In this document: piece after piece, positions 395 through 24,445 of the stretch
Position numbering within the stretch: position 1 is the stretch's first letter
Layout: the number at the start of each line of letters is the position of its first letter
Assembly (NCBI GenBank): GCA_963576565.1
Contig: OY755046.1
Span: 71,603,719 to 71,667,718 of the forward strand
Length of the DNA stretch: 64,000 bases
Direction of reading: 5' to 3'
Source: Aspidapion aeneum
Lineage: Eukaryota; Arthropoda; Insecta; Coleoptera; Brentidae
Program-made: the position numbers and the translations under genes
Notes under the pieces: model-generated
Database searches by the model: none
What the model was told of the DNA's origin: nothing
The model's input: the letters and a program-made list of their open reading frames with translations, nothing else

Positions 395-570
395 TCGTAA
401 AAAAATTGAGAAGTTGACTTTACTTTTATCTCAATTCTTTTTACGGAATACCATTTTCGCGTACTTAGCTTTTTTTACATAAAATGTTTTTGTTATGATT
501 TCATGCCTTTTTTAAAGGATTTGCATAATATTTAAGTTTTAAAGTAGTAAAATATACGGAATAATTTTTG
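395..570. repeat. Dispersed repeat block shared by Chc introns A and D
   Basis: The stretch around 415-475 (TTACTTTTATCTCAATTCTT, then ACGGAATACCATTTTCGCGTACTT) recurs at about 15551-15600 in the same orientation. The following part (about 480-560, TTTTTAAAGGATTTGCATAATATTTAAG) recurs reverse-complemented at about 14811-15535, where it is interrupted by the 14847-15498 element. The block therefore records the pre-insertion form of the site in intron D. No coding sense seen. Confidence 0.65.
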
Positions 571-2885: not shown

Positions 2886-3465
2886 AAATACTCTGCCAAT
2901 CTATGGGCACCTAAGCTCACACTAGGAACTATAGTTATAGTGTGAGCTAATATAATCAAAAACTGAAATATATTTTATTCAACTCCAGACTCAATTACCT
3001 TTCGTTTGATACCACACAAGCCATGTTTTGACTTAAACTCAAATTTTTTTAATCTACCCCCACCCTTTTGAAAAAAACTAAAATGTATTTTGTTTAACTC
3101 CAGACTCAATTACCTTTCGTTTGATATCACACACGCCATATTTTCCCTTAAACTCTAATTTTTGACATCTACCCCCACCCTTTTTTAAAAAATAAACTAA
3201 AATTTATTTTTTTTAACTCCAGACTTAATTACCTTTCGTTTGATATCACACACGCCATATTTTCACATAAACTCTAATTTTTGGAATCTACCCCCACCCT
3301 TTTATTTGGCTTGCGTTCGGTGGATTTTGTTTATTTTTAAATGGGACCATCACGGCCCAAGACCCAACTTAGGTACCAAATTTCATTAAAATCGGACAAG
3401 CGGTTTTTGAGTTATGCGGGTTGGTCGTTACAGACAGACATACAGACAGACATACAGACAGACAT

Positions 3466-3496
<31 letters not shown>

Positions 3497-3632
3497 GCAA
3501 AACAAAAAAGTTTCAAAATCATCTGAAACGCAAAGATATATAAAAAATTTTGAAATCGGAGCAACTTTTTTTTTCTCGAAAAAATTAGGATCACCATAGC
3601 TCACACTACTTATAGTAGTAGTGTGAGCTAAT
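2886..3632 (+). mobile_element. Palindrome-ended dispersed repeat, copy 1
   Basis: One of three copies (others at 8191-8890 and, inverted, 12454-13312). The order is: CTCTGCCAATCTATGGGCAC; a palindrome AGCTCACACTA...TAGTGTGAGCT; three tandem ~107-bp units each with ACTCCAGACT and ACCTTTCGTTTGATA; a block with ACCAAATTTCATT and GCGGTTTTTGAGTTATG; an (ACAG)n tract; a conserved AAAAAGTTTCAAAATCATCT block; and a second AGCTCACACTA...TAGTGTGAGCT palindrome. No ORF. The class is not clear: it looks non-autonomous, and the terminal hairpins are its most distinctive trait. Confidence 0.75.
3431..3498 (+). repeat. (ACAG)n microsatellite with CATA interruptions
   Basis: A run of ACAGACAG units, the first part interrupted three times by ACAT. 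It sits at the same internal position as the tetranucleotide runs of the other two copies of this repeat family (8741-8758 and 12577-12762), so the length differs greatly between copies. Confidence 0.95.
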
Positions 3633-3778
3633 ATAGATAGTTTTACCGTATTGTGGGATTAATTTTGAAACTAATGACATAATTAAGTCAAAATATCAAC
3701 ATTTTGCATTTGCCTCATTGTTTTGCCGGGACGGCGATATGGTTTTATAGGTTTGTTTCATATTGGAGTGAGCTATAC

Positions 3779-3810
3779 TTGATATTGTATTAAAGTGACA
3801 CCGCGTCATC
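3779..3810. repeat. Inverted-repeat arm flanking the Penelope-like fragment (left)
   Basis: TTGATATTGTATTAAAGTGA plus CACCGCGTCATC. The reverse complement occurs at about 5662-5693 with four differences in 32 bases. The two arms bracket the minus-strand Penelope-like fragment, 1.9 kb apart. Confidence 0.6.
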
Positions 3811-3999
3811 AAAACCTTGATCGGCGGAAAGGGGGTAGAGGGGTACATACAGTGGCACGCACTTCCTTTAATTTTTATTATATTGATTCCCAAAATGAGG
3901 CACTGCACTAAATTACTCATTAGCTTACTATTTCACTTGCTTTTTATTGATGTCTTCTTCTAAACGATTTTATTAGAAAGGAACATATATACTCTTATC

Positions 4000-5567
4000 T
4001 GGTTCAAATTGTGAAAGGCTTTCGCGGCCATCGTCCAATGGTGGGTGTGCTTTCGGGCTGTTCGGCCGTCGTCGTTGGAAATTCGTTCTCGACGTTTCGC
4101 CATCTCGAGTGGATGGCATTTCAGGAGATGTTGACTGTTTGTCGGCTTCTCAAAGACTGGTGGTTAGTCTGTCGCGGGCGCAGGTTATATACGCTATGGT
4201 GGGCGGGGCGTATATCAGAGCTGGTCGGTGATTGGTCACATTCCCTTGATTCAGTTTTGTTATTGTAAGCGAGCCGTTTAGTGTTTTTAAGAACCGGTAC
4301 CCATGTTCTGTTAATTTTAAGAGTTTCTTCAGATCTGTTGAAGTTCTGCTGGTGTTTATGAATTTCGATTGCTTCTCTATAGAGTCTTGGATAGTATGAA
4401 GAGGAGGCGCAGAGAACTTGTGTGTCTTCGAATTTTATTCGGTGGTCTTCATTGTTTAGTGTGTGGTCTGCAACTGCGGATTTTTCCGTATGTCCGAGGC
4501 GACAGTTGGCTTTGTGTTCTTTGATTCTTGTGTTTACGGACCGTTTGGTTGTTCCGATGTAGACACTTCCACAGGTACAGGGAATGCGGTATACCCCCGA
4601 AGAACTTAATGGGTTCCTTATATCCTTCGCAGATCTGAGGTGGTTCTCGATCTTCTTAGATGGCTTGAAGATCGTTTTTATGTTGTGTTTTCCCAGAATA
4701 CGTCCGATCCTATCTGTCACTCTCGGGATGTAGGGCAGAAAGGCTCTTGAAGTAACTTCGCGGCTGCTCAGTCCACCGCTACTGTTACTTCTAGTGCTCG
4801 GCTTTGGTCATATACATTTATCTATGTCGCTTTTAGTGTATCCATTTGCTACGAGGGCGTTTTTAAGATGGTTTAATTCTTTGTCTAGATGTTCTGGTTC
4901 GCAGATTCTTTTCGCCCTCTCTACCAATGTTCTTATTACCCCTTTTCGTTGGCACGGGTGGTGGTTAGATGTGTTGTTTAGGTAGCGGTCTGTGTGAGTA
5001 GGTTTTCTGTATACGGTATGTCCTAGTCGTCCCTCTTTCCTCGTTACTAGTACGTCAAGGAATGCTAATTCTCTGTTGTTCTCTGTTTCCATTGTAAATT
5101 GTATACTGGGGTGTATGCTGTTAATGTGGTTGAGAAATTCATTAAGGCTGTCTCTACCATAAGGCCAAACGACAAAAGTGTCATCTACATATCGAAACCA
5201 GACTTTGGGTTTATAAGGGGCATTATTCAGCGCCTTTCTCTTCTAGTTTCTCCATGAAAAAGTTCGCAATCACTGGCGATAAAGGGCTACCCATTGATAC
5301 TCCATCGATCTGTTCATAAATTTGTTCATTGAAGGTGAAATATGATGTCGTTAGGCAGATCTTAAACAGGTCGGTGATGTCCTTCGGAAAAATGTGTTCC
5401 ACTTCCCTCATTGCCTCGGCCAAAGGTACCTTCGTGAACAAAGACACAACATCAAAGCTAACTAAGATGTCTTTCTCGTCCATGACGATGTTTTTGATCT
5501 TCTCAATAAAGTGGGTGGAGTCTCTTACATGCGAATCAGTTAGTCCGATGTGGGGTTGCACACATTA
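4000..5567 (-). pseudogene. Penelope-like retroelement, 5'-truncated and broken
   Basis: Penelope-like elements (PLEs) copy RNA into DNA at the target with a reverse transcriptase fused to a GIY-YIG endonuclease. Reading the minus strand from 5561 down, the palm motif FDVVSLFTKVP, the motif GVSMGSPLSPVIANF and the catalytic YVDD (about 5180) appear. The C-terminal endonuclease domain follows, with GVYRIPCTCGSVYIGTTKRS (about 4570-4510), the GIY-YIG signature of this family. The frame is broken at least twice: a one-base insertion near 5230 and an in-frame TGA at 4808-4810; downstream the frame runs open to 4121. The N-terminal half is absent, which fits 5' truncation during target-primed insertion. 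It is surely inactive. The family is well supported; the clade within PLEs is not determined. Confidence 0.9.
4083..4131 (-). ncRNA. Possible decayed hammerhead ribozyme in the PLE 3' region
   Basis: Minus strand just past the PLE stop. A UCUC arm, CUGAAAU, a six-base helix GCCAUC/GAUGGC closing a CACUCGA loop, GAAA, a minimal ACGU stem III, and GUC followed by GAGA that can pair with UCUC. This is the order of a type I hammerhead with a very short stem III, the form known from PLE terminal repeats. The core reads CUGAAAU where CUGANGA is required, so the catalytic G8 and A9 are lost and it should not cut. Location and helix support it; the core mismatch and the tiny stem III argue for caution. 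Confidence 0.35.
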
Positions 5568-5661
5568 AACCCCGAGCGGCAAACTGCATATACAAAGTGA
5601 AACACTAATTTTTTAAGGCTTCTTTACTTAGATTTTGCCGCAAAATTTGGTTTACCATAGG

Positions 5662-5693
5662 TATGACGTGGTGCCACTTTAATACAACATCAA
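5662..5693. repeat. Inverted-repeat arm flanking the Penelope-like fragment (right)
   Basis: Partner of the arm at 3779-3810. Its presence just beyond the truncated 5' side of the retroelement suggests that the retroelement landed inside an older inverted-repeat element, or that the arms are two inverted copies of one short repeat. Confidence 0.6.
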
Positions 5694-5743
5694 CTATAGG
5701 AAGGTATTAGGTTCGTCATAGATTCATTTGTTTTTTTTTTTAG

Positions 5744-5996
5744 GTTGGTCAACCTCCTTCAGCAAATCAACCATTCCCCAAAAAGACAGTCGACGTGTTT
5801 TTCCCGCCCGAGGCGCAAAACGACTTCCCTGTGGCGATGCAAGTGTCAACCAAGTATGACGTCATCTACCTGATCACAAAATACGGCTACATTCATTTGT
5901 ACGATATCGAGAGCGCTGTTTGTATCTACATGAATAGGATATCGAGTGAGACGATTTTTGTGACGGCTCCTCATGAGGCTACTGGGGGAATCATTG
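5744..5996 (+). CDS. Chc: Clathrin heavy chain, second visible exon
   Basis: It encodes 84 full codons plus one base, starting [14 protein letters not shown] and ending HEATGGIIG, with the conserved blocks [18 protein letters not shown] and [15 protein letters not shown] of the clathrin propeller (about residues 228-312). The acceptor is a run of T ending in TTTAG (5743) and the donor is GTAAGA (5997-6002). It joins the previous exon in phase 0 and ends in phase 1, completed by GA of the next exon to give glycine. No stop or frameshift. The upstream intron is 5,526 bp and consists largely of repeats. Confidence 0.97.
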
Positions 5997-6087
5997 GTAA
6001 GATACTTTTGTTATCAAATATGTACCGCAATTTTGTTTTAAAAATATGATTGGTACAGTAAATAAAAGTTTAAATATTACGCTCTTC

Positions 6088-8190: not shown

Positions 8191-8890
8191 AAAAAATACT
8201 CTGCCAATATATGGGCCCCTAAGCTCACACTAGGTACTATAGTTATAGTGTACGTGTGAGCTAATATAAATAAAAACTAAAATATATTTTATTCAACTCC
8301 GGACTAAATTACCTTTCGTTTGATACCACACAAGCCATGTTTTGACTTAAACTCAAATTTTTGAAATCTACCCCGCACCCTTAAAAAAACAAAAACTAAA
8401 ATATATTTTGTTTACCTCCGGACTCAATTACCTTTCGTTTGATATCACACACGCCATATTTTTACGTAAACTAATTTTTTAAATCTACCCCCACCCTTAA
8501 AAAAAACTAAAATATATTTTGTTTAACTCCAAACTCAATTACCTTTCGTTTGATATCACACACGCCAAATTTTCACATAAACTCTAATTTTTAAAATCTA
8601 CCCCGACCCTTTTATTTGGCTTGTGTTTGGTGGATTTTGTTCATTTTTAAATGGGACCATCTCGAGCCAAGACCCAGCCTAGGTACCAAATTTCATTGAA
8701 ATCGGCCAAGCGGTTTTTGAGTTATGTGCGTTGGTCGTTACAGACAGACAGACAGACGGCGCAACAAAAAAGTTTCAAAATCATCTGAAACGCAAAGATA
8801 TATAAAAAAATTTGAAATCGGAGCAACTTTTTTTTTCTCGAAAAAATTAGGATCACACTACTATAGTATAGTATATGTGTGAGCTAATAT
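8191..8890 (+). mobile_element. Palindrome-ended dispersed repeat, copy 2
   Basis: Same order as copy 1: ACTCTGCCAATATATGGGCC, a palindrome GCTCACACTA...TAGTGTACGTGTGAGC, three ~107-bp units, the TTTCATTGAAATCGG block, a short ACAGACAGACAGACAG run (8741-8758), the AAGTTTCAAAATCATCTGAA block, and a degenerate terminal palindrome. It lies in the 3' non-coding part of LINE B. Confidence 0.75.
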
Positions 8891-12453: not shown

Positions 12454-13312
<859 letters not shown>

Positions 13313-13618: not shown

Positions 13619-13815
13619 GAGTGAACCGTCGCGGCCAAGTTCTATCCGTATCCGTAGACGAAGAAAACCTGGTGCGTTACGTAACGCAGGTGTTACACAA
13701 CTCAGATCTTGCGTTACGTTTGGCGATCCGTAACAATTTGGCTGGCGCTGAGGATTTGTTTGTTAGCAAGTTTCAGTTGCTGTTTCAAAATGGACAATAC
13801 ACTGAGGCAGCTAAG
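13619..13815 (+). CDS. Chc: Clathrin heavy chain, third visible exon
   Basis: The first two bases complete the split glycine codon. The exon then encodes [35 protein letters not shown] and ends [10 protein letters not shown] (about residues 312-378). This is the end of the propeller and the linker leading to the first alpha-helical zigzag of the clathrin leg. The acceptor AG is at 13617-13618, preceded by CCCTTCTCGTTT, and the donor is GTAAGT (13816-13821). It ends in phase 0. The intron before it is 7,622 bp, while the one after it is only 276 bp and free of transposons. Confidence 0.97.
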
Positions 13816-14091: not shown

Positions 14092-14231
14092 GTCGCTGCA
14101 AATGCTCCAAAAGGCATTCTGAGAACTCCTGCCACAATTCAAATGTTTCAACAAGTTCCAACTCAACCTGGTCAGAACAGCCCTTTGCTGCAGTATTTTG
14201 GAATCCTGTTAGATCAAGGACAACTCAACAG
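14092..14231 (+). CDS. Chc: Clathrin heavy chain, fourth visible exon
   Basis: Encodes [19 protein letters not shown], then [19 protein letters not shown] and LN plus the first two bases of an arginine codon (about residues 378-424). This is one of the most conserved parts of clathrin heavy chain, in the linker and start of the distal leg. The acceptor is TTTCTCAG (14091) and the donor is GTAGCT (14232-14237), a weaker donor than its neighbours. Phase 2 at the 3' end matches the leading A of the next exon. Confidence 0.97.
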
Positions 14232-14284
14232 GTAGCTTATTTCTTTTTTTTCTTAGTGTGACAAACCCTTGGAAAAAGTAAAAA

Positions 14285-14800
14285 AACACCATAATTCCAA
14301 TTTACTCCCCTCCCCTATACATGTAAAATTATACAAAAGTAACATTGCCCACTTTCAGAAACGCTAGAGAGCTCAGCTTAAATAAAACTACAGGAAAAAA
14401 TTTAAAAACCCCTAAACTTTAATTTACTTTCCTCCCCTCTAAATGTAAAGTTATGTAAATATAACTTTGCCCACTCCCAGAAACGCTAGAGAGCTGAGAT
14501 TTGGAAGCCGATAGGAACTACCATAAAACTATAGAAAAAAAAATTTTAATACCCCAAAATTTTAATTTACTTTCCTCCCCTATAATAAAGTAACTTTGCC
14601 CACTTCCAGAAACGCTAGAGACCTGAGCTTTGGAAGACTGATAGGAATCACAAAACTATAGTAAAAAATTTTAAATTTTAATTTACATTCCTCCCCTATA
14701 AATTTAAATTTATCTAAAAGTAACATTGCTTACTTCCAGAAACGCTAGAGAGCTGAGCTTTGGAAGGCTGATAGGAACTATGATAAAACTATAGGAAAAA
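14285..14800. repeat. ~125-130-bp tandem repeat, four units
   Basis: AGAAACGCTAGAGA starts near 14358, 14479, 14609 and 14739 (AGAGACC in the third unit), giving spacings of about 121, 130 and 130. Units also share TTAATTTACTTTCCTCCCC and ATAGGAACTA...AAAACTATAG. This is the reverse complement of the family at 570-940 in intron A. Confidence 0.8.
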
Positions 14801-14846
14801 ATATTTCACATATTCTACTACTTTGAAACTTAAATATTATTCAAAT

Positions 14847-15498
14847 CAAACGTGAAATTTCGTACCCGTGAATTTAAAAATCAAACAAGTTTCATGGCTA
14901 ATCGGGCAAAAAGGAGTTTTTTGTTTCCCTTATATTTTTCCGTGGGTAGCTTGAAAGCTTAACCTCACGGGGGTCCAAGATCTAATGGACACCTAATAAG
15001 TGTTGACAGTTAACGTTTGTTAGTATTATTTGGCTTAAAAATTCCGTTGATTGACGCTCACTGTCTTGATGACGGGTAAAAATGCAAAATGCGTTGATCC
15101 GGCCTGAAAAGACAAAGAGCTGTCGTAGGTCACGGACTATAGTTGTTTTCTTTTATTTGCATTCGATCTTTTCATTGTTCGATATTGTATAGCAGTGTTT
15201 TTCCCTGCTTTTGGTTTTTTGTTTCTCTCGTATCTCGGTAGATGGCGCCTCTTGCTATAGTTCGCTCACTAATTACATTTAATTAGAGACAAAACCGTCT
15301 GATTAACTTCGCAAGATTTGTCACTTGACCAGCAGTGTTCTGAGGAGTCCCATAAGGACGAAACGGTTAACTGTCAACACTTATTAGGTGTCCATTAGAT
15401 CTTGGACCCCCGTGAGGTTAAGCTTTCAAGCTACCCACGGGAAAATATAAGGGAAACAAAAAACTCCTTTTTGCCCGATTAGCCATGAAACTTGTTTG
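14847..15498. mobile_element. Inverted-repeat element carrying a hammerhead ribozyme
   Basis: A 652-bp insert flanked by an 11-base direct repeat ATTATTCAAAT (14836-14846 and 15499-15509). Comparison with the uninterrupted repeat at about 520-545 (ATTATGCAAATCC, reverse strand) supports the insertion point. It contains inverted arms of about 138 bp (14881-15018 and 15361-15499), nearly identical over TTCATGGCTAATCGGGCAAA, CTTAACCTCACGGGGGTCC and AATGGACACCTAATAAGTG. The first 34 bp lie outside the left arm. The ~340-bp middle has no ORF, no tRNA-type A/B box and no transposase. The right arm begins inside the GAAA of the ribozyme. The class is unknown; hammerheads are known from PLE terminal repeats and from animal satellites. 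Confidence 0.7.
15322..15389 (+). ncRNA. Type I hammerhead ribozyme
   Basis: Every conserved part of a type I hammerhead can be read in order on the plus strand: stem I 5' arm AGUGUU (15334-15339); core CUGAGGA (15340-15346); stem II GUCC (15347-15350), loop CAUAA, GGAC (15356-15359); GAAA (15360-15363); stem III ACGG (15363-15366), loop UUAA, CUGU (15371-15374, one G-U pair); cleavage-site C at 15375 (GUC); and stem I 3' arm AACACU (15376-15381), perfectly complementary to the 5' arm. Beyond an internal loop, CACUU (about 15322-15326) can pair with AGGUG (15386-15390), giving the lower stem I and the loop needed for tertiary contact with loop II. Predicted self-cleavage is between 15375 and 15376. 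It is in the sense orientation of Chc. Confidence 0.85.
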
Positions 15499-15539
15499 AT
15501 TATTCAAATCCTTTAAAAAAGGAATAAAATCATAACATG

Positions 15540-15606
15540 AGGACTTGGCGTTACTTTTATCTCAATCTTTTTTACGGAATACCATTTTCGCGTACTTGGC
15601 CTTTTA
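15540..15606. repeat. Dispersed repeat block, second copy
   Basis: GGACTTGGCGTTACTTTTAT then ACGGAATACCATTTTCGCGTACTTGGCC matches about 410-475 in the same orientation; see the block at 395-570. Confidence 0.65.
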
Positions 15607-15615
15607 AAACATGAA

Positions 15616-16891
15616 CAGCAGTATTTACTAAGGCGTAAGTTTTAGTCTAGGTTTTGGTTTAAGTTTAAGGTTTAGGTTTAAAATTTAAATGTGCATTGGT
15701 TTGGAAAAATTGATTTTTTGTCGAAACAGGCCGCAATTGATTTGGTATTTTTACCTGTATGGACGATAAAATGTCCTAAAAATTGAAATTTAAGACGATT
15801 TGTTCTTGAAATGGACCATATAGACCGGAAAAAAGAAGAAAACATGGAAAACTGATTTTTCTACAACTGTCTAATTTAGACTTCTATGTCACTTTAAACC
15901 CCTAGGTCATGGGATTCCGACTAAAAATCGTCCTAAATTTTAAACTACCTACGGGGGGTGGTTTATCTCATTGTAACTTGAAAACAATCACGTTTTTGTT
16001 AATTTATTTGTTAAAAATGTAAAATTTGATCATATTTAGGGACGATTTGACAAAATTTTATACGATTTTTAGCTTCAATTAACTATTAGAGCGAGTTTTT
16101 TAGGGCAATTTACACAAGGCTGGATAAACCATTTAGTACTAAATTCTCATATCTCTTTTATATTTTAGCATGTAGCTTTTAAACGATATTTGCCTTGACG
16201 AGGAAAGTAAAAAAAATGATCTTTAGATTATAATCCAAATAAACTCACACGCGATTTGTGTATTTGCAAATAATCTTTAAATTAATATAATAAAAAATGT
16301 TTTTATTTATTTATTTATTGTAGCAGTCATTTTCCATTAATGGTTTTAATACGCTCTAGCCATACAGATATATTTAAGATGTACGTGCACCAAGATGACA
16401 GCAGATGACAATCCCAGTAATTAGTCCAGCAAGTGTCAGTCAAGTCACTTTTACGTCATTTTAATAAATTTAAAAATTTATTTTTCAGTTTCGCTTTGTT
16501 TGTGCAAGTTATTAAATAAAAATTACGAAATTAGAACACATTTTCCGACAATGTCAAGTTTGGGAAGTAAGTGTAAATTGAAAAATGTAAGTAATTCACT
16601 TAAATATCGCTGCATTTTCACTTAAACCTCGTTCCCTACAAACTTAAACCTATAGTTTAAACCATTTCTTTTCCGTTTTTTCCATTTTTTTTACGAAAAC
16701 CTTGCAGATTCTTATTTAAACCGGTTTTTTTGCCATTGCGATATAACCTATGTAGTTATAATTAGTCCAAAATTCCATTAACTTAAATTAAGATTAAAAG
16801 AAATTCAGTTAAAACGTTTCACAAAAGATAAACTAAAAATTAAACCTAAACTTTAAACTTAAACCCTAAACCATCTTAGTAAATACCGCTG
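15616..16891. mobile_element. 1.28-kb TIR element, non-coding
   Basis: Ends are CAGCAGTATTTACTAAG (15616-15632) and its inverse CTTAGTAAATACCGCTG (to 16891), 17 bases with one mismatch. Inside each end is a T/A-rich tract related between the arms (GGTTTAAGTTTAAGGTTTAG and its inverse). No ORF and no clear target-site duplication. The repeat framing it is the one also seen in intron A. Confidence 0.6.
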
Positions 16892-16975
16892 CTAATGTTT
16901 TGTTATGATTCTATAGAAGGATATTTTCTTATGGCGTCTTTTGTTACGGATTCGTCAGATTGTATTTATTTTTAG

Positions 16976-17150
16976 ATACGAATCTCTGGAACTCTGCAAA
17001 CCAGTTCTTTTGCAAGGAAGAAAGCAGTTGCTCGAGAAGTGGCTAAAAGAAGAGAAATTAGAGTGTTCTGAAGAATTGGGAGACTTAGTGAAACAAGTCG
17101 ATCCAACTTTGGCGCTTTCTGTCTATCTTAGAGCCAATATACCAGCTAAG
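16976..17150 (+). CDS. Chc: Clathrin heavy chain, fifth visible exon
   Basis: The leading A completes an arginine codon. The exon then reads [38 protein letters not shown] and [17 protein letters not shown] (about residues 425-483), part of the first helical repeats of the clathrin distal leg. The acceptor is TTTATTTTTAG (16975) and the donor is GTACGT (17151-17156). It ends in phase 0. It is followed by a 22.7-kb intron filled by a satellite array and an LTR retrotransposon. Confidence 0.97.
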
Positions 17151-17231: not shown

Positions 17232-18307
17232 GACACCCCGACACAAAATACCATTCTCGAACGTACCACCATTTAATCTAATCGTGTTGAACTGAACTTA
17301 CACATTATTATCCGATTATTTACCATCTCTTTTTAAATTAATGTATTAGTAAGGGCGCCTAATACTCTTAAACAATCATGGTATCAATAAACAAACAGTG
17401 GTCTACTCGTTTTATTTACTAAACTAACACATTGTCATCCAGCTACTTACTCTCTCTTTTTAACTCAAATTAGTGGGACGGGCGCACCCAATCTAAAAAA
17501 TGAACCGACACAAAATACCATTCTCGAACGTACCACCATTTAATCTAATCGTGTTGAACTGAACTTACACATTATTATCCGATTATTTACCATCTCTTTT
17601 TAAATTAATGTATTAGTAAGGGCGCCTAATACTCTTAAACAATCATGGTATCAATAAACAAACAGTGGTCTACTCGTTTTTTTTACTAAACTAACACATT
17701 GTCATCCAGCTACTTACTCTCTCTTTTTAACTCAAATTAGTGGGACGGGCGCACCCAATCTAAAACAGTCTTGGGATTAGTTTGCAAATAGAAGTATTTA
17801 TAAGATGTCATTTTGACAATCAATGTCAATCAACTTTCTTCCATCAGCACACAGTGGGCTCGCGGACCTGATTTTTCGCCAAAAAGGGTTAAATTAAATA
17901 CATACTGAAACTTCTGAACATCTTTACTAAAAAAGAGTAGATAATCCAGTAGGCCTTGAAAAAACTATTATTTGATTGACACAACTTTCAGAAGTGTCAT
18001 GTTTCCTTTCAAAGTACTATATTTGCATGGCGATTTGATCCAAATTTAAAGCCATTTTGCGACAATATTTTATGTTGTATAAAATTCTCATAAAATAAAT
18101 CTTGTAGAGGGAGGTAAGTAGATTTTATCCCTGTACATTTTGATTTCAATTTTGATGTATAGACCAGGTATGGTAATGGTTTTTGCTTGGGATTTCTGAA
18201 ATTCTCTCGAACGTACCACCATTTAATCTAATCGTGTCATTGACTGAACTTACACATTATTATCCGATTATTTACCATCTCTTTTTAAATTAATGTATTA
18301 GTAAGGG
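17232..18307. repeat. Satellite A array, left part
   Basis: Begins with two partial ~275-bp units, both opening GACACAAAATACCATTCTCG (17234 and 17507), followed by one nearly full monomer. It is cut at 18307 by the LTR retrotransposon, after ...GTATTAGTAAGGG, and the array resumes in the same orientation and register at 24652. The partial duplicated units are typical of the edge of an array. Confidence 0.92.
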
Positions 18308-18731: not shown

Positions 18732-18961
18732 GCCATTCCTTTGCTCTTTCCAATTCTCTGATTAAGTTTTGGGGAATAGATAGGTACCGCGTATCGAACG
18801 CATTAGATTTAGATCAGTCTATCGCAGACAAAGTAAATTTAGAACCTGCCAATTGAGGCATAGTCTATAGGAATAAATTTTTGAAAAAGCGTAGGTTGAA
18901 AAATTGGAAAAACCTACAAAATTTTAAATTGATTTAAAAAACCATTTTTTGACAATCTAAA

Positions 18962-20344
18962 ATGCAAAACGAACAAAACGGTCAACAACGTAACGTAGGC
19001 GTACCTGACATAAATTGGAGTATGTTTAAGTCTAAATGCGAAACTATTAAACTCTATGATGGCAGTAGCGACACGCTTAATAAATTTATCAAAAGATGCG
19101 ATAACTTAGTAACCTGTTTTGCACATATTAATAATCGTTATCTTAATGAGCATATTTTTGACGTAATTCAAGAAAAATTAACTGGAAGAGCAGAAAAATT
19201 GGTTGGAAATCGACTAGAAATTAAAAACTGGATCGATTTAAGAGCTGAATTAATATCGACTTTTTCAGATCGTAGTAATATCGAGATTTTAGTACAAGAA
19301 CTAATGCGCATGCGACCGTTTAAAAGCGAACATTTATTAGATTTCGGCAACAGAATTCAATTGTTAAAAAGTAGAATTATTCAAAAAATTTCTAGTAACG
19401 CAGATTACACCGCTGAACAGAAAACCTTTTACATTGAAATGTACGACAATACGGCACTGAATACATTCATAGCAGGCTGTTCAGGACAAGTTCGACATAA
19501 TTTGTACCTGAAAAGTCCAGAGTCTCTCGAAGAGGCTATGAACCAAGTGTCAGAGTTCGAAAATTGGGAGAAACTCTACGGCCAGCAAAGCCAAAATCAA
19601 AATTTTTTCCAAAATCAAAATTCTCACTTAAGGCCTAGTACATCAAGGGGCGAAAATTCAAACAATAACATTTTTGCAAATAATACCGCACGTTATAACC
19701 CACAAATGCACCAACCTCAATTTAGTCGTCCTCAATTTAACCAATCACCATTCAATCAACCTCGTTTTAATCAACCAAATTTTCAAAATCAAAATTTTAA
19801 CGGACCACAAAGATTCCAATGGCCAAGCCAGCCACTAAACATACAACCAAGACCTTTACCGCCACAAAGATTCCCTAATGCTCAAGATGTATTCGGACCA
19901 CCAAAAAATGTTTTTAGCCCAAAAAATACACCGGAACATCTTTTACCCAAACCGACGCCCATGTCCGGTATTTCTAACCAGACAAGTAGCTTTATGAGAA
20001 ACAGACCACAAAATCAAGGTTTCAGAAGAAACGAATTTTATTCTAACGAATTTCAAAATTATAACGATGGAAAAGAAGAAGACTACTGGGGAAATTATTC
20101 ACAGTTTTATGGCCACGGTGATAGCCAAGAATTTTTCGAGCAGAATGATACCCCACATGACCCTTACACTGGATATAATCATGGCTATTCGGAGAGTGAT
20201 TACTCTGCAGAATACAACTACCAAGAACCCGACTATCAGTCATACCCGGAAAACACACAACAAAATAAGACAGAAACACAACCAAACCAGATCGCCCAAA
20301 ACGAAAATTTTTCGAAACCAGGCCCCAGCAAAAATCAACCATAA
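18962..20344 (+). CDS. gag: Errantivirus Gag
   Basis: 460 codons from ATG, intact. Gag assembles the particle shell. The N-terminal ~200 residues form a mostly alpha-helical, capsid-like region (FIKRCDNLVTCF and LTGRAEKLVGNRLE near residues 38-85, LMRMRPFKSEHLLDFGNRI near 115). From about residue 210 it is low-complexity, rich in Q, N, P and F (repeats of the FNQPxF kind), then acidic and tyrosine-rich. No CCHC zinc knuckle is visible, as in gypsy-like Gag proteins. It ends at TAA 20342-20344; the pol frame is -1 relative to gag and open from 20269, so the two overlap by about 76 bp. Confidence 0.9.
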   Translation: MQNEQNGQQRNVGVPDINWSMFKSKCETIKLYDGSSDTLNKFIKRCDNLVTCFAHINNRYLNEHIFDVIQEKLTGRAEKLVGNRLEIKNWIDLRAELISTFSDRSNIEILVQELMRMRPFKSEHLLDFGNRIQLLKSRIIQKISSNADYTAEQKTFYIEMYDNTALNTFIAGCSGQVRHNLYLKSPESLEEAMNQVSEFENWEKLYGQQSQNQNFFQNQNSHLRPSTSRGENSNNNIFANNTARYNPQMHQPQFSRPQFNQSPFNQPRFNQPNFQNQNFNGPQRFQWPSQPLNIQPRPLPPQRFPNAQDVFGPPKNVFSPKNTPEHLLPKPTPMSGISNQTSSFMRNRPQNQGFRRNEFYSNEFQNYNDGKEEDYWGNYSQFYGHGDSQEFFEQNDTPHDPYTGYNHGYSESDYSAEYNYQEPDYQSYPENTQQNKTETQPNQIAQNENFSKPGPSKNQP

Positions 20345-22770
20345 TAGAAATCAATACCCATTCCAGAAGCCAACTACCTTATATCGAAATCAATAACCCA
20401 AAATGCAAATTATTGATTGATACAGGTAGCAGTCGATCAATATTAAGACCAATAATTGCAGAAAAATATTTCCCAAATTGTATCTTCCGAAAAATTAACC
20501 AGATAAAAACCGTTAATGGATCCAATGACACACAGTTTGAAGCAGAAATACCAGCCTTCCGAGAATTTTGTTACGACGGTCAGATAACATATGTGCTATT
20601 TGATTTTCACGACTATTTCGATGGCGTCATAGGGATAGAAGACCTGACAAGAATGTGCTTAAACATAGATGTGGTAAATGAACAACTTGTAGGCACGAAT
20701 GTCATTATACCGTATAAATTTAGACACAAATGGGAAACAAATTCGACCATTACAATCAGCGCGATGGAGAAAGCATTGAAATTAGTACCAGTCAATATCG
20801 ATTATGGAGCAATTTTGACATCCGCAATTTACATCAACGATTTGTACATACCATCAATTTTGACCACAGCCAATAACGGATACGCACTAATCGAAGTCCA
20901 AAACCCCACAAATGAATCGAGATCACTGACATTTTCAAAACCACTAATAGTTATGCCTTTTAAAGAAGAATACGACTACGAGGTGAAATATAAAAAAGGG
21001 AAAGAAAATCAAGCAGCAGATGCTCTATCTCGCTTTCCCGTAGAACTAAACACCATACAAATTGTCAAAAGTCAAAGAACCCAAAATTATATAAATGCTT
21101 TAGAGACATCATCAGTAGACAACAACCCGGGAGACACCAATGACGTAATAAAAGAATTCTTGAACACACCAGAAAGATTTGTAGGACAGAATCAAAACCA
21201 AGATGAAAAAGGAGAAACCACTGATACTGCCGAATCAACAGGAACCCTCGAAGATTTGACAAGAAGCCCAAAAATAATTATTCAATCTAATATACAACTC
21301 AGAAAACCATACCAAGACGACCAATCAATAACCGATACAGTACATACGTCACGAGAAGAACCGATACTAAATATTCCAATCACGGAAAGACCTGTTAATT
21401 TTTACAAACATCAAATAATAGTAAAAACTGGACCAACAGAAAAATTAATTGTCAAGAATCAATCAATTTTTACAAATTCAAGGTATACGATAACCGTCTC
21501 ACAAAACGATCCCATACCAGATATTTTAAGATTTTGCAAAGAATACATCAACCCCAAATTTCGTTATGCAATCTTTATAAAAGATGATTCTTTAGCAAGA
21601 CAATTTACAGTCACTCTTCAAAATTTCTTCAAAAACAGTTCTTTCACATTAGTCCGATGTACAAATTTCCTAGAAGATATACAATCTCGCGAGGACCAAC
21701 AAGAAAAGCTCAGTTTATACCACGTAACAAAGACATGCCATAGAGGAATGAACGAAATGAAACAAGCATTTAAATACAAATTTTATTGGCCGAAAATTTG
21801 TGAAGACATTGAAGCATATGTCAACAATTGCGAAATATGTCAAATAAATAAATATGACAGAAACCCTCCTGTCATAAAATTCAATTTAACACCAACGTCA
21901 TCAAGGCCCTTCGAGCATATTCACATCGATGTATTTCGAATTAATTATGACGCATTTTTAACAATAATGGACACGTTTTCAAGATATGGACAAGCATACC
22001 CAATAACATCAATAACAGGTGCAGAAGCAGTAGAGAAAATATTTACGTTCATAACGCATCATGGATTACCAATCAAAATCACAGCTGATTCAGGCAGCGA
22101 ATTTAAAAATAAGGACTTAGAAGATTTTTGCAAACTTTATAGAATACCGTTGCATTACACTACAGCTGGAAATAGCAACTCCAACTCACCAGTAGAGAGA
22201 TTTCACAACTCCATCGTAGAAAGTTTTAATTGTTTAAAAGCTGAAAATCCTAACTTAACGAACGAACAGCTGATGCGCAGGGCAGTCCTAGGCTATAACA
22301 ACTCAATACACAGCGTCACAAAATATACACCATTCGAAATCATTACAGGCCACATACGATCAATGAATCCATTCGATTTAAACGATAACGCTATCATTTC
22401 ATCATACGTTCAAAACCATAAAGAAAATTCCCAAAAAATTTACGAAAAAATTAAAGAGCGAAACCAGGAGGCGAAAGAAAAAGTCATTTTTAAACAAAAC
22501 GAAACTAGAGAAGAACCCCCCGATTTCTCAGGAGAAAGAAAAGCTTACATTCGAACAAAACACAGGGCAAAACACTTACCGCGTTACAAGAAGGTCGAGG
22601 TCACCGGTCAATCGAAAATTAAATTACACACGCATAAGAATTCTTATCATAAAATGCGCGCAAAGAAACCAAAAAGACAAACTAAAATTAGAAAATCTTT
22701 TCAGGATGTGCCGCCACCCCATGGTCCTGATATTCCTGGTCCTTCTAATGAAACAGGCAATAGGGAATGA
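20269..22770 (+). CDS. pol: Pol with protease and integrase, RT deleted
   Basis: The frame is open from 20269 to the TGA at 22768-22770. Order seen: retroviral-type aspartic protease with LIDTGSSRS (near 20413); its C-terminal part up to about 20960 (LIVMPF); then directly DYEVKYKKGKENQAADALSR (about 20980-21040), which is the end of RNase H. The whole RT and most of RNase H are missing without breaking the frame. Integrase follows: an HHCC zinc region (H...CHRGMNEM...CEICQ, about 21720-21845) and the catalytic triad D (21928), D (22087), E (22195), that is D,D(35)E. The last ATG-free stretch is basic. No ATG start is needed, because translation would come by -1 frameshift from gag. The family's usual Pol is several hundred residues longer. 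Confidence 0.88.
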   Translation, partial: DRNTTKPDRPKRKFFETRPQQKSTIIEINTHSRSQLPYIEINNPKCKLLIDTGSSRSILRPIIAEKYFPNCIFRKINQIKTVNGSNDTQFEAEIPAFREFCYDGQITYVLFDFHDYFDGVIGIEDLTRMCLNIDVVNEQLVGTNVIIPYKFRHKWETNSTITISAMEKALKLVPVNIDYGAILTSAIYINDLYIPSILTTANNGYALIEVQNPTNESRSLTFSKPLIVMPFKEEYDYEVKYKKGKENQAADALSRFPVELNTIQIVKSQRTQNYINALETSSVDNNPGDTNDVIKEFLNTPERFVGQNQNQDEKGETTDTAESTGTLEDLTRSPKIIIQSNIQLRKPYQDDQSITDTVHTSREEPILNIPITERPVNFYKHQIIVKTGPTEKLIVKNQSIFTNSRYTITVSQNDPIPDILRFCKEYINPKFRYAIFIKDDSLARQFTVTLQNFFKNSSFTLVRCTNFLEDIQSREDQQEKLSLYHVTKTCHRGMNEMKQAFKYKFYWPKICEDIEAYVNNCEICQINKYDRNPPVIKFNLTPTSSRPFEHIHIDVFRINYDAFLTIMDTFSRYGQAYPITSITGAEAVEKIFTFITHHGLPIKITADSGSEFKNKDLEDFCKLYRIPLHYTTAGNSNSNSPVERFHNSIVESFNCLKAENPNLTNEQLMRRAVLGYNNSIHSVTKYTPFEIITGHIRSMNPFDLNDNAIISSYVQNHKENSQKIYEKIKERNQEAKEKVIFKQNETREEPPDFSGERKAYIRTKHRAKHLPRYKKVEVTGQSKIKLHTHKNSYHKMRAKKPKRQTKIRKSFQDVPPPHGPDIPGPSNETGNRE
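20305..20311 (+). promoter_or_regulatory. Candidate -1 frameshift slippery site
   Basis: A AAT TTT in the gag reading frame, an X XXY YYZ heptamer, inside the 76-bp gag/pol overlap. A -1 slip here enters the pol frame before the gag stop and runs without interruption into the protease. I did not identify the downstream stem or pseudoknot. Confidence 0.5.
22698..22704 (+). promoter_or_regulatory. Candidate splice acceptor for env mRNA
   Basis: CTTTTCAG ending at 22704, directly before G-ATG of env. It pairs with the GTAAGT donor in the leader. Confidence 0.6.
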
Positions 22771-24445
22771 CATCCAAATTACCAATTTAGACAACCCAAT
22801 TCTACCGATAAAATTGGGTAAAGCACGTTTAGTATACAGTCGTCATACTTTTCTACATTATGTTAATTTAAAAGATATTTTTAGCCAATTTGAAAATATT
22901 CAAAATTTATTTTTTAATGTTAAAAATCAAATCAAATTCGAGAGCAAATCTGACTTTATAAGCTATCACTCTTTAACAGAGAGTCTATTGCTGAGAACGG
23001 AATTTTTAGTTCAGTCAACAATTGAAAAATTGCAAAACTTACGCCCACACAAAATTCGTAAACGCGGATTAATTAACGCAGTAGGAACCGTAAACAGATG
23101 GTTATTTGGAACTTTAGATGCCGAAGACGGGGAACGATACGATAAAGCAATCTCTAATCTTGAATTAAATCAAAAAGAAATTACTAAAGGGATCAATACA
23201 CAAATTTCCCTTTCGAAAGAATTAATCGCTAACTATAATAAAACTGTCACTGTTTTAACGAAAAATCAAGAAAGCATTCAAAAAGGCTTAAAAGCACTCC
23301 AAATGTCAGTACAAACAACTATTAATGGGTTACAAGAGTATTTAAGTATTCAAGGCATTTTATCACAAATAAATTTAGATTGTCAAAATTTGATAACATT
23401 TTTGGACAACTTAGAAGACGCGATTTTATTTTCAAAATTAAATACTTTACATAATAGCATTCTTTCGACAAACGAGCTTAAAACAATAATGGGATATTTG
23501 GAAAAATTTTATTCGAAATCAGAAATACCAAATTTTCAAAATTTCTTATCATATTATCAATTTTTGGGAACTCAAGTTAGCTTTTTGGAATCAAGGGCTA
23601 TTTTCGCAATCCATGTTCCTATACTTACACCTGAAACCTATTCCTTTTACCGAATCTATCCAATAATTCAAGAAAAATCAATATTTATCCCAAAATACCT
23701 ATTTATGGCACAAGAAGATCAAAGAAGACAATTTGCTACCGAAGCTTGCCCAGCTCTCGAAGAAACATATTTCTGCCAAGAAGAATTTCAAACCCAAGAC
23801 CAGTGCCTTGAAAAGCTGCTCAATGGTTCCACACAACTGGAAAACTGTCAAATCATATCGATAAACTCCGATCATCCAATTATCGAACAAATCACGCAAG
23901 ACATGGTGCTCTTTATGCCACTGAAAACCGAACAACTCGTTGGAAAATGTAGCACAGACCATTATTACCAAATAAAACAATCAATACTTATTAGACTACC
24001 GAAAAATTGCGAAATTCAAATCAACAATCGAAAATTTGTAAACGACGTTAAAATCCAAAAAGGTAAACCACTAGTTCTACCACAAATCGAACTAGGGTCA
24101 ATGAACTTGACAAGATTTTTGGCAACGCCAAATTTTACGAAAATCGATCTTGAAGACATCTACCGACTTCAAGATATCGCAAGCCTACTCTCACCAATCA
24201 ATCCGATTGAAACTCATCACCAGAGATCAATATCATCGATCGTTATTGGTCTTTGCATTATCGTCACAATTATGGTACTATTTGCTTCCTTAAAGAAGAT
24301 AAAACCACTGTTTATCAGAATTTGGAAACAAAGTCCGATTGAAGAACCCAGTCATGCAGATGCCGATCAAACCGATCAACCCAATCAATCCGATCAATCA
24401 ATCAGCTTAAGTAGTCCTTCGAAAAGATGTATTTTCGAAGCTTAA
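22706..24445 (+). CDS. env: Errantivirus envelope glycoprotein
   Basis: 579 codons, intact, overlapping the end of pol by 65 bp in another frame. Errantivirus Env is a membrane fusion protein related to insect baculovirus F proteins. Seen here: a hydrophobic signal segment (MVLIFLVLLM, residues 6-15); a furin-type site RKR at residues 118-120, followed by a GLINAVG fusion-peptide-like start and the family motif WLFGTLDAEDGERY; long helical segments; a cysteine-rich region around residues 340-430; and one transmembrane helix (SSIVIGLCIIVTIMVLFAS, about 511-530) with a short cytoplasmic tail. The ATG follows the acceptor TTTTCAG (ending 22704) by one base. Confidence 0.9.
   Translation: MCRHPMVLIFLVLLMKQAIGNDIQITNLDNPILPIKLGKARLVYSRHTFLHYVNLKDIFSQFENIQNLFFNVKNQIKFESKSDFISYHSLTESLLLRTEFLVQSTIEKLQNLRPHKIRKRGLINAVGTVNRWLFGTLDAEDGERYDKAISNLELNQKEITKGINTQISLSKELIANYNKTVTVLTKNQESIQKGLKALQMSVQTTINGLQEYLSIQGILSQINLDCQNLITFLDNLEDAILFSKLNTLHNSILSTNELKTIMGYLEKFYSKSEIPNFQNFLSYYQFLGTQVSFLESRAIFAIHVPILTPETYSFYRIYPIIQEKSIFIPKYLFMAQEDQRRQFATEACPALEETYFCQEEFQTQDQCLEKLLNGSTQLENCQIISINSDHPIIEQITQDMVLFMPLKTEQLVGKCSTDHYYQIKQSILIRLPKNCEIQINNRKFVNDVKIQKGKPLVLPQIELGSMNLTRFLATPNFTKIDLEDIYRLQDIASLLSPINPIETHHQRSISSIVIGLCIIVTIMVLFASLKKIKPLFIRIWKQSPIEEPSHADADQTDQPNQSDQSISLSSPSKRCIFEA

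Follow-up and report, generated by a model that had tools for sequence, protein, structure and literature searches.

A type I hammerhead ribozyme on a probable small retroelement in a clathrin heavy chain intron, with predicted masking in the host transcript

Introduction

What is a complete hammerhead ribozyme doing in an intron of the clathrin heavy chain gene (Chc) of the beetle Aspidapion aeneum? The motif lies in the sense strand of the gene, and an earlier note on this DNA had treated it as a feature of the intron and suggested that it could cut Chc pre-mRNA. The window analysed here is a stretch of 64,000 nucleotides (64 kb), and all coordinates are counted from its first letter. We hold it probable that a genuine type I hammerhead is carried here by a young, non-coding mobile element of 651 bp, of the retrozyme or Penelope-dependent type, and that it rides in Chc pre-mRNA as a masked passenger. 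The evidence is given below, together with the alternatives.

The host intron and its surroundings

Three exons (13619-13815, 14092-14231 and 16976-17150) join into a 170-residue peptide that carries the Pfam domains Clathrin-link and Clathrin_H_link. All 15 PDB matches of this peptide are clathrin chains (best E 3.8e-87). The exon joins and the two kinds of match place the host intron at 14232-16975 on the plus strand.

The intron and the window contain several other repeats. Two copies of a 122-142-bp tandem-repeat family lie in opposite orientation, at 14273-14806 (plus) and 945-584 (minus). A second inverted-repeat pair in the host intron (15606-15687/16834-16901; 73% over 82 columns, about 1.1 kb between the members) perhaps marks another mobile element. 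Three repeat copies with three tandem units of 112-119 bp are found at 2958-3497, 8267-8611 and 12571-13234; two of the three adjoin a (CTGT)n run, and TTAGCTCACAC strings occur near the ends of the repeats at 2958-3497 and 12571-13234, some of them within short hairpins. A 267-bp unit in two tandem copies (17238-17765, 99% matches) is probably a recent duplication. The element at 18953-24445 (plus strand), which we take to be Gypsy/errantivirus-like, has no Pfam match in frame 1, integrase domains with no RT match in frame 2 and a Baculo_F envelope match in frame 3; judged from these frames, it seems to be missing an internal part. Finally, the stretch from 40137 to the end of the window (64000) is a satellite array in which a 169-bp unit is repeated about 141 times with 96% matches.

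The hammerhead core

A type I hammerhead has the core consensus CUGANGA...GAAA...UH, with three helices and the strand open at stem I; the same consensus is visible in the Rfam alignment. All of this is found at 15334-15381 on the plus strand. The 6-bp stem I (AGUGUU/AACACU, 15334-15339/15376-15381) encloses CUGAGGA (15340-15346), stem II (GUCC/GGAC, 15347-15350/15356-15359, loop CAUAA), GAA (15360-15362, in a GAAAC context), stem III (15363-15366/15371-15374, with the pairs A-U, C-G, G-U and G-C and the loop UUAA) and C 15375, which stands immediately 5′ of the predicted cut at 15375/15376. All of these are read directly from the letters. A constrained fold adds a lower stem I of 7 bp including G-U pairs, with its 5′ strand at 15322-15328 and its 3′ strand at 15384-15390, beyond an internal loop of 5 + 2 nt (15329-15333 / 15382-15383). 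The fold contains an internal loop in stem I as well as loop II, the two partners of a possible tertiary contact.

On these points the earlier description is borne out. The complete core with its 6-bp stem I and 4-bp stem II reads as it had been reported, the hammerhead is on the same strand as the clathrin exons, and the possible lower stem I that had been noted after an internal loop forms with identical outer coordinates (15322 and 15390). The proposed cut between 15375 and 15376 holds as a predicted site, C being the preceding base.

The check that had been proposed with the type I covariance model came out divided. Rfam RF00163 matches 15334-15381 across the full length of the model, which supports the identification, at a score of 24.7 bits. 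The family was absent from the default Rfam scan output because this is below its gathering score of 34, a curator's cut-off that is no functional feature. The E value is 0.0084 in 4.1 kb and 0.13 in 64 kb, both counted over 4227 families; for RF00163 alone in 64 kb it is about 3e-5 (0.13 divided by the number of families), which is significant. As sequence and pairing, the hammerhead motif in the Chc intron is confirmed as genuine.

The insertion that carries the ribozyme

The description of the ribozyme as a plain intron feature had overlooked the insertion in which it sits. The inserted element is 651 bp long (14848-15498, plus strand) and is flanked by target-site duplications, ATTATTCAAATC at 14836-14847 on the left and ATTATTCAAATC at 15499-15510 on the right, which have no strand of their own and are identical at 12 of 12 bp. 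The repeat around the insertion occurs elsewhere in the window in a diverged form, which contains a related, unfilled target site (491-555, minus strand). The flanks of the insertion are each 92% matched there, the two matches overlapping by 12 nt, and the joined flanks agree with it at 62 of 72 aligned positions. The unfilled site holds one target copy, identical at 11 of 12 bp. The GC content of the insertion is 0.40, as against 0.30 in the rest of the host intron. The hammerhead does not belong to the clathrin intron proper, and seems to have arrived with the insertion.

The insertion has a right arm (15361-15498, plus strand), which starts inside the GAAA of the ribozyme core, and a left arm (14882-15018, minus strand), which alignment and a repeat search identify as an inverted copy of that right end. 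The arms align over 138 columns with 136 identical, one mismatch and one gap. Because both the arms and the target duplications are so nearly or fully identical, the insertion looks young.

No stop-to-stop frame of at least 110 aa is present in 14848-15498, and the spacer has stops in all six frames. There is a single ribozyme and no direct repeat of a unit in the insertion, nor does the 64-kb window hold a second copy of the element. Searches with exact patterns from the element found 0 matches among viral contigs and 0 among prokaryote genome contigs; neither collection covers animal genomes, and the result says little about copies elsewhere. A tRNA-derived SINE was considered and set aside: no tRNA was found in 1-40000, and the standard pol III box patterns gave no convincing pair in the insertion.

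What kind of element

We read the insertion, by analogy, as a non-autonomous retroelement of the retrozyme or Penelope-dependent kind, because of the published setting of such hammerheads and the presence of Penelope-like pieces in the same window. The comparisons draw on published work (PMC7229834, PMC6155905, PMC11167929). As described there, animal type I hammerheads occur mostly in small non-LTR retrozymes, with insects among the hosts, and these elements have a GC content below 50% and target duplications above 4 bp (PMC7229834). Their repeats are usually tandem and about 150-450 bp long, their RNAs are about 170-400 nt, and autonomous Penelope-like elements are noted in their hosts (PMC7229834). 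Many genomic copies and small circular RNAs are further marks of the class. The insertion resembles them in having a type I hammerhead with a short stem III, a GC content of 0.40, no visible coding capacity and a target duplication of 12 bp. It differs in being a single unit, whereas theirs are tandem, in its length without the left arm (15019-15498, about 480 nt, vs. their RNAs), and in carrying an inverted copy of one end. Being single-unit, it is not established as a member of the retrozyme class.

Penelope-like elements offer a second comparison. The tie of a hammerhead to a retroelement is shared (PMC11167929, PMC6155905). Their hammerheads are usually, not invariably, minimal, without helix III and without tertiary contacts (PMC6155905), whereas that of the insertion has a 4-pair stem III and a lower stem I; also unlike them, the insertion has no frame of at least 110 aa, by frame scan, that could hold a telomerase-like RT or GIY-YIG domain. 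One Penelope-like element cleaves AT-rich DNA in vitro with a preference for ATT, and the AT-rich target of the insertion begins with ATT, a likeness that lends weak support (PMC11167929). In the window, RT and GIY-YIG Pfam pieces lie at 4121-5564 (minus strand) in three separate frames, the middle one without a Pfam match. These pieces are about 10 kb upstream of the insertion, antisense to the clathrin exons, and we read them as a probable broken Penelope-like element. An origin of the insertion from them was rejected, as the two share no sequence similarity. An Rfam search of 3400-6000 with E up to 10 gave only an unrelated weak match and no hammerhead near the pieces, and one Penelope RT piece searched against viral contigs gave no confirmed relative.

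The inverted arms, which come close to both ends of the insertion, could point instead to a DNA transposon. The insertion would then be a foldback or MITE-like element with inverted repeats of about 138 bp, and the hammerhead would be there by chance or capture. We consider this unlikely. Common DNA transposons are not known for target duplications as long as the 12 bp found here. At the left end the arm is preceded by 34 nt (14848-14881), which makes the two ends asymmetric. Moreover, animal type I hammerheads are located mostly in retroelements (PMC7229834, PMC6155905).

Stability of the fold, as monomer and dimer

The ribozyme is not a stable fold in energy models. The 91-nt region gains nothing in folding energy over shuffled RNA (z -0.25), and the hammerhead is not its structure of minimum energy. 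In a model without tertiary contacts, the hammerhead accounts for a share of 0.21 when the bare 48-nt core is folded and of 0.0006 when 15310-15400 is. Forcing the hammerhead costs 4.32 kcal/mol with 25-nt flanks, 3.95 with 20, 3.96 with 12, and 4.58 in 15310-15400. These ViennaRNA energies, like those below, leave out tertiary contacts and co-transcriptional kinetics.

As a yardstick we used 110 distinct type I hammerheads from viral contigs in 25-nt context, found with a search pattern that gave them an identical stem II sequence. Their forcing cost has a median of 0.80 kcal/mol and a 95th percentile of 4.35, so that the Chc-intron copy stands at about the 95th percentile; six of the 110 cost at least 4.58 kcal/mol. 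In the viral-contig set, too, stem I most often has a length of 6 (93 of 156 pairings before selection). Stem III, in turn, is among the shortest: it has 4 pairs, including A15.1-U16.1, a number shared by 4 of the 110, the remainder having more. The predicted stability of the Chc-intron hammerhead is thus poor by these models even without the left arm.

The core may also form a dimer. The stem III strand ACGGUUAACUGU (15363-15374, plus strand) is self-complementary, with G-U pairing and the palindromic UUAA loop, and permits a double-hammerhead dimer. No dimer of the 48-nt core scores better than the double hammerhead, at -29.4 kcal/mol vs. -18.2 for two monomers. With the lower stem I it reaches -38.4 kcal/mol, and another dimer is better at -39.1. 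A palindromic 4-nt loop is expected by chance about once in 16, and as a sign of dimer action the loop may be called supporting, not decisive. Dimeric action is documented for amphibian hammerheads with a weak helix III (PMC7229834, PMC6155905). The HHR_Amex1 hammerheads of amphibian satellites share the weak helix III, the palindromic tetraloop and the propensity to dimerize, whereas stem III in the Chc intron is longer (PMC7229834).

The inverted arm and the host transcript

The left arm is complementary to the stem III and stem I 3′ strands in the ribozyme. It does not include the CUGANGA half, because the right arm begins inside the GAAA of the core. Chc pre-mRNA contains the left arm 5′ of the ribozyme, to whose 3′ half it is complementary. 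By ViennaRNA, forcing the hammerhead costs 25.5 kcal/mol in transcripts whose start is no later than about 14980. The cost is 4.0-6.7 kcal/mol for starts past about 15010 (3′ end 15400) or past 15000-15005 (3′ end 15498). Shuffles of the left arm give 4.70-5.46 kcal/mol (6 mononucleotide shuffles) and 4.84 (40 dinucleotide shuffles), the latter with a spread of 0.00 and hence of little value as a distribution.

This bears on the proposal that intronic cleavage of Chc pre-mRNA by the ribozyme affects or regulates clathrin expression. The complete core in sense inside the intron is what such cutting would call for, and the lower stem I could permit a loop-loop contact. Type I hammerheads in introns of conserved genes are also found in amniotes (RECK, others), where they are thought to be domesticated (PMC6155905). 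Those are conserved across species, in contrast to the Chc-intron one, which looks young and has its carrier still attached (PMC6155905), and a young-looking insertion gives no sign of conserved function. Even without the arm the fold costs 4.3 kcal/mol (25-nt flanks), against the much lower yardstick median, and the left arm adds about 20 kcal/mol. Since the arm raises the cost from about 4-7 to 25.5 kcal/mol, substantial cutting of Chc pre-mRNA is unlikely in these models. The competition between arm and ribozyme is a thermodynamic one, and a fast ribozyme could cut before the hairpin closes; since the rate of the S. mansoni type I hammerhead comes close to 1000 per min (PMC6155905), one can conceive of the ribozyme escaping the hairpin kinetically. 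Overall, we judge an action on clathrin expression quite unlikely. The earlier suggestion of cutting fares poorly, as the left arm outcompetes the ribozyme fold in the energy models and makes efficient cutting thermodynamically improbable; an effect of the ribozyme on Chc is not favoured.

Our preferred reading, a masked passenger on a small retroelement, would run as follows. The 651-bp element landed in the Chc intron with its ribozyme in the sense orientation. The ribozyme would serve to process the RNA of the element itself, in which it may work; the cut at 15375/15376 would give this RNA a defined end, and cutting would possibly take place as a dimer, via the self-complementary stem III. 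In Chc pre-mRNA, the left arm would be transcribed first, pair with the 3′ half of the ribozyme and block the catalytic fold.

It may be asked if the left arm is a built-in context switch, locking the ribozyme in read-through RNA and freeing it in element-started RNA. In outside transcripts such as Chc pre-mRNA, the arm would come first, the ribozyme would be locked in the hairpin and the host gene would be spared. In RNA begun inside the element past about 15010, the arm would be absent, and the ribozyme would cut and make a transposition intermediate. We regard such a design as very unlikely. The inverted arm may stem from a template switch at the time of insertion or be a family-wide structure, a single copy not discriminating between the two.

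Hairpin formation and chance

The full insertion folds as one long hairpin, at -331.8 kcal/mol vs. -154.0 (sd 6.1) in 20 shuffles, and this nearly perfect intronic hairpin of about 138 bp might itself be the relevant feature, as dsRNA for small RNAs or editing, with the ribozyme incidental; such hairpins may also be by-products of insertion, and we find this reading highly improbable.

Chance may be considered last. A motif scan (6-bp stem I, 4-bp stem II, GAAA, minimal stem III, UH) gave one match in the real window, 15334-15381. As the null, the first 40,136 bases were shuffled with dinucleotide frequencies kept. The 83,261 shuffles gave 165 core matches, 37 with a lower stem I of at least 5 bp and 2 with one of at least 7 bp; an earlier, smaller run agrees (27 core matches in 17,127). 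The expectation per 40 kb is about 0.002 cores, and about 2.4e-5 with a 7-bp lower stem. The window has 3 CTGANGA...GAAA strings, not above the shuffle mean of 4.01, with stems only at 15334-15381, so further hammerheads were rejected; weak Rfam matches resembling U6atac and mir-2831 were taken as chance. A hammerhead motif arising at random is unlikely: that a random sequence merely fits the consensus would agree with the score below the Rfam gathering score and with the local fold being no better than shuffles, but it has against it the expected counts and the position of the motif inside an insertion of a size and type known for such motifs (PMC7229834), and we give it hardly any credence.

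What the locus may mean

The kind of element is already known, whereas the self-masking arrangement is unusual. With an inverted arm nested against it, the ribozyme is predicted to stay silent in read-through RNA of the host and to be active in RNA of the element. If it did cut Chc pre-mRNA, the locus would offer a natural test of intron cleavage vs. splicing in a conserved gene. As we read it, the insertion would newly illustrate how hammerheads get into introns: by delivery on a small retroelement, seen before decay or domestication.
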